A stretch of DNA of 56,802 bases, taken from assembly GCA_014378705.1 (NCBI GenBank), contig JACMND010000014.1, positions 1 to 56,802 of the forward strand, given 5' to 3'. A program made the translations under genes and the position numbers. A model generated the notes under the pieces. That model was given only the letters and a program-made list of their open reading frames with translations, was not told where the DNA came from and did no database searches. The DNA comes from Pedobacter sp. (GTDB lineage: Bacteria > Bacteroidota > Bacteroidia > Sphingobacteriales > Sphingobacteriaceae). Of this stretch, positions 1,730 through 55,349 are shown piece by piece (position 1 is the stretch's first letter; each line of letters starts with the position of its first letter).

Positions 1730-1836
1730 TCAGTTAGAAATTTTTAGTCCGGTAGTTTCAACCACCAACCAACTATAAGATCTTAAATGTTACATGCTTC
1801 CACATTGAACATTGAGTAATAAATAAATTAAGTAAA

Positions 1837-7915: not shown

Positions 7916-7984
7916 TTATTGGTTGTTAGTTGTTAGTTGTCAGATTTGTCTGGAACTAGCAACTGGCAACTGGCAACTCACAAT
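7915..7984 (+). repeat. Heptad-period repeat with opposed arms between rpoB and rpoC
   Basis: From the last base of the rpoB stop the sequence reads in 7-nt units: GTTATTG, GTTGTTA, GTTGTTA, GTTGTCA (7915-7942), a 14-nt centre, then TAGCAAC, TGGCAAC, TGGCAAC (7957-7977). The second block is roughly the reverse complement of the first, so the tract can fold into an imperfect hairpin. It fills nearly the whole rpoB-rpoC gap. Two other tracts with the same period lie at 45921 and 54757. Confidence 0.8.
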
Positions 7985-7995
7985 TAAAAAAAGCT

Positions 7996-45921: not shown

Positions 45922-45962
45922 GTTTGGAGTTGGCAGTTAAAAGCCTGGAGTTGACAGCTGGA
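45921..45962 (+). repeat. Heptad-period repeat after the purF-like gene
   Basis: Six 7-nt units in register from the last base of the stop codon: AGTTTGG, AGTTGGC, AGTTAAA, AGCCTGG, AGTTGAC, AGCTGGA. All start with AG and five carry T as the fourth base. The AGTT core is shared with the tract between rpoB and rpoC. Confidence 0.7.
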
Positions 45963-46035
45963 ATTAATTAAATTTTTACAAGTATTGAATATTGCTTCGT
46001 TCCATTTCTCAAAACTAATATTTTAAATCTCACAC

Positions 46036-53273: not shown

Positions 53274-54689
53274 ATGAAGCTTAAAAACATTGGTTTAATT
53301 GTTCTCATCCCTATTTCTATTGCTGCAATCCTTGCTTTTCTTAATCACTATAACTTAGTATCAGTTCCTCAAACGGTTCTTTTTTTTTCCAGATGGCTGG
53401 CCATTGCCGCTTTGTTTTTATATGGGTTTCATAAAAAGACCTTAACAACCTGGATCCTGGTTTCGATGGTTGTCGGTGCGGAGATTGGTCATGATTTCCC
53501 GGAGATCGGCATGAAACTGCAGGTACTTAGCAAGGTGTTTTTGAAGATGATCAAGACGATTGTAGCTCCCTTGCTCTTCGCCACACTGGTTTATGGTATA
53601 GCCGGTCATTCAGATTTGAAACAGGTTGGCCGGATGGGATGGAAGTCGATACTGTATTTTGAAGTGGTCACTACAATCGCCCTTTTTATAGGTCTGGCAG
53701 CTATTAATATTTCTCAGGCGGGCGTAGGAATTAAACTTCCGCCAGGCTCCAAAGAAGAATTGCCAATCGTAGCACCTCAAACATTAAACGACATTATTCT
53801 GCACATTTTCCCGGAAAACGTTGCAAAATCCGTTGCTGAAGGGCAGGTCCTTCAAATTGTAGTTTTCAGTATCATTTTCGGAATAGCGCTGGCCATGGTT
53901 AGAGAAGATAAACGTCAGCCTGTTTTAAAATTTACCGAAAGTTTATCAGAGGTGATGTTTAAATTCACCAACATCGTCATGTATTTTGCCCCCATAGGCG
54001 TAGGAGCGGCTATCGCGTATACCGTTGGGCATATGGGTTTGGGCATTTTAGTTAATCTTTTCCAGTTACTTATAACCCTCTACGTAGCGCTTTTCGTATT
54101 CCTCCTTGGTGTTTTGTTACCAATCGCATTAATTGTTGGTGTGCCCATTAAAAACTTTTTAATGGCTATTGCCGAACCGGTATCTATCGCTTTTGCGACT
54201 ACCAGTTCAGAAGCGGCGTTGCCAAGGGCGATGGAAGCGATGGAAAGAATTGGTGTTCCACGAAAAATCGTCGCTTTTGTAATGCCCACCGGCTATAGCT
54301 TTAATCTTGATGGTACCACGCTTTATCTTTCGCTTGCCGCGATATTTGTAGCCCAGGCCGCCGGGATGCCGTTAACTTTTGGTCAGCAGATATTAATTGT
54401 ATTTACATTGATGCTTACCAGTAAAGGCGTTGCGGGTGTTCCAAGAGCTTCCCTCGTTATTTTACTGGGAACAGCAGCTTCATTTGGAATGCCTGTTTGG
54501 CCTATATTTATTATTCTGGGAATAGATGAGCTGATGGACATGGCCCGTACGTCGGTCAACGTAATCGGTAATTGCCTGGCAACGGTGGTAATCGCCAAGT
54601 GGGAAGGGGAGTTTAACCCTCCTTCAGAATTAGCTGCCGCCAATGAAGACCGGATCTACAGTATTAAAGAAGATGTGATTGAAAAATGA
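53274..54689 (+). CDS. Dicarboxylate/amino acid:cation symporter (DAACS family)
   Basis: An inner-membrane transporter of the glutamate/aspartate/dicarboxylate symporter family (GltP/DctA type). The 471-residue protein has about ten hydrophobic segments, the hairpin-loop Ser-rich motif IAFATTSSEAALPRAMEAMER near residues 302-322, MPTGYSFNLDGTTLYLSLAAIF (the NMDGT-like motif as NLDGT) near 338-359, and LTSKGVAGVPRASLVIL near 381-397. It is preceded by a nested divergent promoter and followed by a heptad-repeat tract. The exact substrate, such as glutamate or succinate, is not told by sequence. Confidence 0.9.
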   Translation: MKLKNIGLIVLIPISIAAILAFLNHYNLVSVPQTVLFFSRWLAIAALFLYGFHKKTLTTWILVSMVVGAEIGHDFPEIGMKLQVLSKVFLKMIKTIVAPLLFATLVYGIAGHSDLKQVGRMGWKSILYFEVVTTIALFIGLAAINISQAGVGIKLPPGSKEELPIVAPQTLNDIILHIFPENVAKSVAEGQVLQIVVFSIIFGIALAMVREDKRQPVLKFTESLSEVMFKFTNIVMYFAPIGVGAAIAYTVGHMGLGILVNLFQLLITLYVALFVFLLGVLLPIALIVGVPIKNFLMAIAEPVSIAFATTSSEAALPRAMEAMERIGVPRKIVAFVMPTGYSFNLDGTTLYLSLAAIFVAQAAGMPLTFGQQILIVFTLMLTSKGVAGVPRASLVILLGTAASFGMPVWPIFIILGIDELMDMARTSVNVIGNCLATVVIAKWEGEFNPPSELAAANEDRIYSIKEDVIEK

Positions 54690-54756
54690 GGAAGAAGACG
54701 TGCAAATGAGAAATGAATAAAGTTGTACTGAGAAAGATATATCGCTGATAACTGAA

Positions 54757-54833
54757 ACCTGAAACCTGATACCTCTTACCTGATACCTCTTACCTGAAAC
54801 CTGATACCTCTTACCTGATACCTCTTACCTAAT
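54757..54833 (+). repeat. Eleven perfect-period ACCTNNN heptads after the symporter
   Basis: The 77 bases 54757-54833 read as exactly eleven 7-nt units, each starting ACCT: with GAA, GAT, CTT, GAT, CTT, GAA, GAT, CTT, GAT, CTT and AAT in the last three positions. Thus positions 1-4 are fixed and 5-7 alternate mainly between GAT and CTT. The unit before (AACTGAA) is one base off. The tract ends 15 nt before the next start codon at 54849. Confidence 0.92.
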
Positions 54834-54848
54834 CCCTAAAAATTAAAA

Positions 54849-55349
54849 ATGAGCGACAGATCAAAAAAAATATTCCTGGCAATTTGCATCATCACGCCTT
54901 TGCTTTTATACTGTGTTTATTACTACAGTATCATGATAAAAAATGCGCCTTACCGCTTTTCTGACTTTGAATCTATTACGTATAAATATGGGTTAGGAGA
55001 TAGCCTGGTTAACCAGTACAATTCCAAGACCGGATCATATCAATATGTAAACAGTAATGATTCATTGGTAAAGACCAACGTTAAATTAAGAAAGGACGAC
55101 CTGCTTTACCTTCACAGAAAAGCCTCAGAAAACGGTTTCTGGAATTTTCCTGAAGTGCTTGAAAACAGTACCTCCACTAAGCAAAACGTCCGTTCTCCGC
55201 ATTATTACATTGAATTTAAATACAAAGATAAAACCAAGCATGTTTTGTACGATGCCGCATACAGCGATAATGTAAAATTGGGCGACGCCGCTAAACAACT
55301 TGCCAAAGAGATCAGCAGCATGATCAATGATGCGCAGGACAGGCAATAA
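54849..55349 (+). CDS. Hypothetical membrane-anchored protein
   Basis: Function unknown. The 166-residue protein has one N-terminal membrane helix (about residues 9-28) and an extracytoplasmic part with YRFSDFESITYKYGLGDSLV, LRKDDLLYLHRKASENGFWNFPE and HYYIEFKYKDKTKHVLYDAAY. The short, polar C-terminal region looks like a small folded domain. It lies directly after the heptad-repeat tract, on the same strand as the symporter. Confidence 0.65.
   Translation: MSDRSKKIFLAICIITPLLLYCVYYYSIMIKNAPYRFSDFESITYKYGLGDSLVNQYNSKTGSYQYVNSNDSLVKTNVKLRKDDLLYLHRKASENGFWNFPEVLENSTSTKQNVRSPHYYIEFKYKDKTKHVLYDAAYSDNVKLGDAAKQLAKEISSMINDAQDRQ

Follow-up and report, generated by a model that had tools for sequence, protein, structure and literature searches.

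Tandem heptanucleotide arrays between bacterial genes have a preferred direction: the AG- or G-rich strand usually leaves the nearest gene, at starts and stops alike and whatever the heptad word. The array at the center of the analysis is a run of ACCTNNN units in the window, a 56,802-nucleotide stretch of Pedobacter sp. DNA, and the polarity was measured in stretches of 35 genomes including its own (G000), a sample of about 2.5 Mb that was hand-picked and not random. The strand running outward from the nearest gene edge has more AG than CT in 99 of the 121 scorable intergenic period-7 tracts of this sample.

Abundance, polarity, and words of period-7 tracts

Genes were called by a simple longest-ORF rule, low-complexity and period 1–3 tracts were filtered out, and overlapping tracts of several periods were assigned to the smallest period. 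Period 7 accounts for 125 of the 184 intergenic tandem tracts of period 4–20 in the 35 genomes, and the next commonest periods are 8 (15 tracts) and 11 (13 tracts). Inside called ORFs it accounts for 23 of 104 tracts. An earlier note on this DNA had placed such tracts in gaps next to stops or before starts, and most are indeed intergenic and near stops and starts. Period-7 tracts are commoner than in shuffled intergenic sequence, with 8 versus 0.2 in the shuffles of G000 and 37 versus 0.0 in both G018 and G012; the outcome that the earlier note had named as refuting it, tracts no more frequent than in shuffles, is thus not what the scan gave. An intergenic period-7 tract was found in 12 of the 35 genomes, many of the others being sampled for 20–40 kb only, and 106 of the 125 tracts come from five genomes. 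The density is 14 per Mb in G000 (where three sampled contigs, L014, L022, and L026, read as N) and about 100 per Mb in G012; 40 kb of G003 contains 9 tracts, and the same length of G015 has none.

The polarity count placed 123 of the 125 intergenic tracts and dropped two ambiguous tracts and two without ORFs on both sides. AG outnumbers CT on the outward strand 54 to 10 at stops and 45 to 12 at starts. By genome the counts are 24 to 11 in G018, 31 to 6 in G012, 16 to 1 in G026, 8 to 1 in G003, 7 to 1 in G000, and 7 to 0 in G035, and single exceptions occur in G004 and G032. The bias is 37 to 2 for tracts that lie within 30 nt of one edge and have the other edge 60 nt or more away, and 24 to 10 for tracts more than 60 nt from both. 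Of the 70 tracts found up to 30 nt from an edge, 62 have more G than C on the outward strand (62 to 8). The p values assume independent tracts, and several tracts share one spacer (for example, L088 of G018). A strict count, which requires flanking ORFs of 150 aa or more and gives each spacer side one vote, is fairer because several tracts sit in one spacer, and it gives AG outward in 67 of 72 cases (67 to 5). Split by edge, this count is 21 to 2 at tandem stops, 24 to 2 at tandem starts, 15 to 1 at convergent stops, and 7 to 0 at divergent starts. The 85 tract-bearing spacers comprise 31 with both types, 28 with CT only, 22 with AG only, and 4 unscored, and the AG type comes first in 29 of the 31 two-type spacers. 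Three arrays lie at tRNA edges; two are AG-outward and one, slightly C-rich, has neither AG nor CT. Heptad arrays directly adjoin tRNA genes at L083 3531-3575 and L112 10139-10204.

AG versus CT is 64 to 8 for arrays, compared with 177 to 168 at 400 non-tract edges, where G versus C is 222 to 146. When the tracts were reversed in place in silico and the pipeline was rerun, the counts flipped to 76 CT versus 19 AG. Gene calling is therefore not the source of the bias, and a gene-calling artefact behind the polarity was rejected. The reversal also left 44 rather than 23 tracts inside ORFs, so the stop codons in the arrays do shape spacer borders.

A scan of genome contigs for eight successive ACCTNNN units returned at least 118 stretches (ACCT loci), and the 80 titles listed among them include Cyanobacteria, Bacteroidota, Gammaproteobacteria, and others. 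Two putative viral contigs (L300 and L301) each carry four perfect ACCTGAT units. In these loci AG is outward 43 to 18 overall, 26 to 3 next to an edge, and 2 to 5 beyond 60 nt, a count from which 36 tracts within ORFs were dropped, together with 23 flanked by an ORF on just one side and 1 flanked by none; divergent starts give 1 AG to 3 CT by the strict rule. A non-ascertained set was obtained by removing the recruiting tract with 150 nt on each side, and period 7 makes up 89 of its 125 intergenic tracts. Tracts of any word in this set are biased next to an edge (G versus C, 38 to 5; AG versus CT, 33 to 8) and less so over all positions (G versus C, 51 to 27, p = 0.009; AG versus CT, 45 to 28, p = 0.06), with 10 of the 89 left out for want of ORFs on both sides and 6 as ambiguous by AG/CT. 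The polarity is a rule of gene edges, because the bias is strong next to edges and weaker elsewhere in other genomes.

The heptad words are non-random. ANCT/AGNT is present in 52 of 87 genome-word pairs versus 24.7 (sd 3.7) expected from letter-shuffled heptads, a pattern that replaced the first idea of a CT anchor (41.6% of the 125 tracts versus 26.6% when phase-permuted). ATG (8 versus 23.6 expected) and CAC (2 versus 12.6 expected) are depleted. In 82 arrays with one consensus AGNT, the uniformity of the AGNT columns is 0.77–0.85 versus 0.70–0.71 for the other three. The AGNT anchor exceeds the rest of the heptad by 0.07, whereas the median difference over 32 other three-letter patterns is 0.003; AGNT is not unique in this respect, since two of these patterns have a larger contrast (0.076 and 0.142). 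Words agree within one mismatch in 16.0% of 1475 pairs from different spacers of the same genome and in 4.9% of 6190 pairs between genomes, versus 3.4% for permuted words.

The focal array and related spacers

The focal array is a tandem heptanucleotide repeat far beyond shuffled sequence (Table 1). It divides into exactly eleven in-register 7-nt units, as the earlier note had read it, with ACCT fixed in 11 of 11. The tails are, in order, GAA, GAT, CTT, GAT, CTT, GAA, GAT, CTT, GAT, CTT, and AAT. The same note had described them as mostly alternating GAT and CTT, and both tails are present, but the true order is an exact 35-bp block of five heptads that occurs twice and is followed by ACCT and the last tail. 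TRF reports 54757-54830 with a period of 35, 2.1 copies, 100% match, and a score of 148. The lag-7 score is 53 over 70 positions versus a maximum of 37 in 60 Markov-shuffled windows, and none of lags 5, 6, 8, 9, and 10 rises above its own shuffled maximum.

Table 1. Features of the window discussed in the text.
Feature	Position	Strand	Basis
Focal heptad array, eleven ACCTNNN units	54757..54833	+ (CT-type on +, AGGT on -)	TRF, unit reading, lag-7 score
Degenerate leading heptads, including AACTGAA (54750-54756) and a single TAACTGA (54749-54755)	54745..54756	+	sequence; TRF period 7 from 54745
Spacer with the focal array, 159 nt	54690..54848		aligned gene ends
Upstream gene, sodium:dicarboxylate symporter family (PF00375)	53274..54689	+	Pfam
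Downstream gene encoding 166 aa, without a Pfam match at E 1e-5	54849..55349	+	Pfam
AG-type heptad arm directly after the rpoB stop	7916..7943		tract scan, lag-7
CT-type heptad arm ahead of rpoC that pairs with the arm after rpoB	7953..7982		tract scan, folding, lag-7
Six degenerate AG-type heptads after the purF-like gene, weak	45922..45963		lag-7; below tract threshold

The ANCT strand of the array reads forward and ends 15 nt before the ATG at 54849, and by position the G-rich strand points away from the nearest gene. TAACTGA is not tandem at this locus; the unit is ACCTNNN, and one TAACTGA stands just before it. GGG is absent from the minus strand of the array, where the G-strand unit is AGGT plus three bases. 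An Rfam RNA or an intrinsic terminator at the array was rejected, since the sole Rfam match at gathering score in the whole window is a tRNA at 892-962 and there are 0 sites with a GC-rich stem and T-run in 54500-55000. The spacer folds no better than shuffles (z of -0.4 on the plus strand and -1.3 on the minus strand), and the plus strand of the array alone folds to 0.0 kcal/mol.

The gene for a 166-aa protein without a Pfam match is next after the symporter gene in all 15 same-genus genomes compared. The equivalent spacer in these genomes is 18–68 nt between aligned gene ends, and a period-7 tract is absent from this gene pair in 15 of 15; three further spacers (L050, L052, and L059) have no heptads by eye. 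The focal array is most simply a lineage-specific gain, because the relatives have no period-7 tract at the gene pair. G000 has a single locus with four successive ACCT units, and an ACCT family dispersed through this genome was rejected. The earlier note's period-7 family with varied cores thus holds as a recurrent kind of tract and not as a set of ACCT copies. Of 60 genomes, 7 have matches to a 25-mer of the array with up to two mismatches allowed, and all 7 belong to the same genus. The counts are 80 in G012 (the matches overlap, so these are not 80 loci), 10 in G003, 4 each in G000 and G014, and 1 each in G009, G018, and G019. The reversed 25-mer, as a control, gives 0 in these seven genomes and 1 each in G033 and G037. 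The ACCT word is therefore common elsewhere in the sister species G012, whose orthologous spacer has no tract.

Other comparable orthologous spacers also have an array in one species that is absent in the other; examples are three spacers between G003 and G009 and one between G012 and both G018 and G000. The spacer between genes for 180-aa and 147-aa proteins upstream of rpoB has AG-type and then CT-type heptads in G012 (L124 1880-2015) and no period-7 tract in G000 (window 1730-1836) or G018; its downstream part looks alike in G000 and G012. Taken alone, the focal array is ordinary, a young tandem array.

The earlier note had pointed to two more tracts in the window. The one after rpoB proves to be two inverted arms, which that note, silent also on the polarity, had not described, and the arms fold as a hairpin. 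The one after the purF-like gene does have a 7-nt period (17 of 35 lag-7 matches versus 5 to 9 at lags 5, 6, 8, and 9), but it is weak and under the tract threshold; the sole Pfam domain of that gene is a class II glutamine amidotransferase (PF13522). In the rpoB-rpoC spacers of G000, G018, and G012 (window 7916-7995, L083 12200-12292, and L124 8099-8179, respectively), heptads of the AG type precede those of the CT type, with hairpins of -31.5, -30.1, and -25.8 kcal/mol and z scores of -6.5, -5.7, and -4.8. The heptad words differ among the three species despite RpoB identities of 95.7–98.3%, and both arms have changed together. The three hairpins suggest that selection keeps some arrays.

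Possible origins of the arrays

Whatever causes the polarity needs to sense gene edges, not gene direction. The explanation we prefer, at about even confidence, is that the focal array has grown by local heptad duplication and that arrays of many words come under a strand-directional process or constraint with a 7-nt step. Local duplication is likely the growth step of the focal array, and the exact 35-bp block present twice shows such duplication in heptad steps. The proposal is further supported by the lack of a period-7 tract at the gene pair in all 15 relatives, the dominance of period 7 among intergenic tracts, the outward polarity and its flip on reversal, and the closer agreement of words within genomes than between them. 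Duplication of one or several heptads at a time would build an array, probably through replication slippage or unequal exchange, and the focal array is one of many word-diverse heptad arrays that lie mainly between genes. Their placement is not random, many of them beginning at a gene edge. The strand-directional process or constraint would act on the strand leaving the gene, and words may afterwards be copied, mutated, and lost quickly. No function need be assumed for the focal array. The AGNT word bias and the lower variation of the AGNT columns count against this proposal, not being explained by blind slippage, as do the weaker bias away from edges, the rpoB-rpoC hairpins, and the origin of 106 of the 125 tracts in five genomes. 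Unit identity has no gradient between gene-proximal and gene-distal halves, either in 64 edge-adjacent arrays (0.695 versus 0.707, p = 0.15) or over all 99 arrays (0.704 versus 0.697, p = 0.73), and a growth gradient, which a growing-end model might predict, was rejected. A broader version would make heptad arrays of whatever word, in different phyla, the footprints of one strand-directional, 7-nt-step process on DNA 3' ends leaving conserved gene blocks. The ends would be extended in a telomere-like way and joined head to head, no canonical reverse transcriptase would be needed, and GGGAATC, TAACTGA, ACCTNNN, and the other words would share one mechanism; we consider this improbable.

The arrays might instead be selected RNA elements, AG-type after stops and CT-type before starts, that form hairpins or unstructured leaders serving mRNA stability, coupling, or translation. 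The strong rpoB-rpoC hairpin of three species, kept despite different words in both arms, fits this account, as do the more uniform AGNT columns and the better pairing of arms with their own partners than with arms of other spacers (mean score 12.5 versus 10.5, p = 0.013). The pairing advantage is modest, however, and in only 15 of 71 spacers do the arms pair better than 95% of the arms from other spacers, so hairpin formation as a general explanation was rejected; pairing is not the general rule, and polarity is. The focal spacer folds no better than shuffles, two arrays directly adjoin tRNA genes, and the rule holds for starts as much as for stops and for convergent as much as for divergent spacers, which would require two or more separate RNA roles. 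We regard selected RNA elements as rather unlikely. Bidirectional transcription terminators or Rho-loading sites are a very unlikely reading. The CT-type strands contain C, are poor in G, and lie downstream for transcripts from either side, and the unfolded plus strand of the focal array (0.0 kcal/mol) also fits, but the focal tract has no terminator-like site and convergent spacers are barely enriched (tracts in 18 of 217, versus 49 of 839 for tandem and 12 of 233 for divergent spacers). Termination between rpoB and rpoC would, moreover, be harmful.

Plain replication slippage at neutral sites, with the polarity arising secondarily from base composition, stop codons, and gene calling, has a low probability in our estimate. 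In its favor, the long repeats of many genomes are most often heptads, and an explanation through polymerase contacts has been published (as cited in PMC4679880 and PMC4692102). The lean of non-tract edges toward G over C (222 to 146) and the rise of in-ORF tracts from 23 to 44 on reversal in the 35-genome set also agree with slippage. It does not account for the AG/CT balance of non-tract edges (177 to 168) against 64 to 8 for arrays, for the flip of the bias on in-place reversal, or for the bias at tandem starts (24 to 2, strict count), where outward stop codons cannot matter. It is quite improbable that heptads are added in a telomere-like manner to 3' DNA ends that leave a gene, and that these ends are then joined into head-to-head AG...CT arrays. 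The G-rich strand does run outward 5' to 3', the AG type is first in 29 of 31 two-type spacers, both rpoB-rpoC arms differ together between species, and a reverse transcriptase that makes tandem-repeat DNA, DRT10, has been reported (PMC12632851, in part). Against end extension, many spacers carry different words on their two arms, the arrays have no identity gradient, and the candidate enzymes are missing from some array-bearing genomes. PF00078 (RVT_1) has matches in 19 of 60 genomes, with one or more in the array-bearing G003, G018, G026, and G035, and no match in G000, G012, or G009; the arrays of G012 and G009 led us to reject a PF00078 reverse transcriptase as a requirement, and a strongly diverged reverse transcriptase in G000 could escape the profile. 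On contig C1 of G026, five RVT_1 matches share one E-value and one frame length and probably belong to a group II intron, or a similar element, in several copies. Ku is present in 22 of 60 genomes, including G000, G003, G012, G018, G026, and G035; it was rejected as a requirement, since G009 lacks it and G015, with no tract in 40 kb, has it.

Relation to published heptads

The focal array is a further case of a known class of heptads. The earlier note, aware of similar heptamers in cyanobacteria, could not say whether this Bacteroidota family was described, but heptads are already in print and are not special to Bacteroidota: excerpts of two papers describe intergenic heptads in Beggiatoaceae, cyanobacteria, five Bacteroidetes, Xanthomonas, and Nostoc (PMC4679880, PMC4692102). 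Mrazek 2007, as cited in PMC4679880, found heptanucleotides to be the commonest category of long repeats in most genomes studied. Those long simple sequence repeats and the arrays described here share 7-nt units, whereas the present arrays are often imperfect, with fixed and variable columns, and the passages citing Mrazek 2007 (PMC4679880, PMC4692102) do not mention a gene-edge polarity or a word grammar.

MacGregor 2015 (PMC4679880, in part) described TAACTGA direct repeats in marine Beggiatoaceae, cyanobacteria, and five Bacteroidetes, and TAACTGA has been counted in a Thiomargarita genome (PMC4853749, excerpt). Like the present arrays, these repeats are intergenic; the word contains AACT and fits ANCT, and the 147 of 170 sets that run toward a start codon (same excerpts of PMC4679880) imply the same outward polarity. 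TAACTGA is one fixed word, whereas here there are many words at both edges and the focal unit is ACCTNNN. The GGGNATC heptads of Xanthomonas and Nostoc (Rehm 2015, PMC4692102, in part) lie on the non-coding strand up to 50 bp upstream of ORFs and on the coding strand up to 50 bp after stops, whatever the ORF orientation. Their convergent inverted pairs number 70 in one Xanthomonas genome and 75 in another, and their length and sequence vary between these two genomes. Their polarity, published for GGGAATC, is that of the arrays here. They are explained in those excerpts through G-quadruplexes, and since AGGTNNN heptads have no G-runs of three, quadruplexes are probably not a general explanation. 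Heptad elements of Geobacter metallireducens resemble the present arrays in being tandem heptads at many loci and differ in being interpreted as regulatory; excerpts of PMC2700814 give five MTYCTGA units at 15 of 16 class 3 sites and 49 GGGACCG elements, some of them within genes and others intergenic.

REP/MITE-type dispersed hairpins are intergenic as well, with a fixed element sequence. Some spacers here likewise have inverted arms, but the arrays have no fixed element sequence and their words differ between loci. What seems new is the polarity stated as independent of the word and across phyla, single-word versions being already published for GGGAATC and implied for TAACTGA; no such general statement was found in the literature searched, in which subscription papers are thinly covered.

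A general direction rule hints at how heptads are made or kept. Published heptad work, as excerpted, has proceeded word by word, each word with its own role (a regulator site in translation, a G-quadruplex, or a regulatory element). A polarity common to unrelated words, to start and stop edges, and to more than one phylum argues for a shared origin or constraint, and the question "why seven?" becomes testable with existing genomes and a simple orientation reversal.
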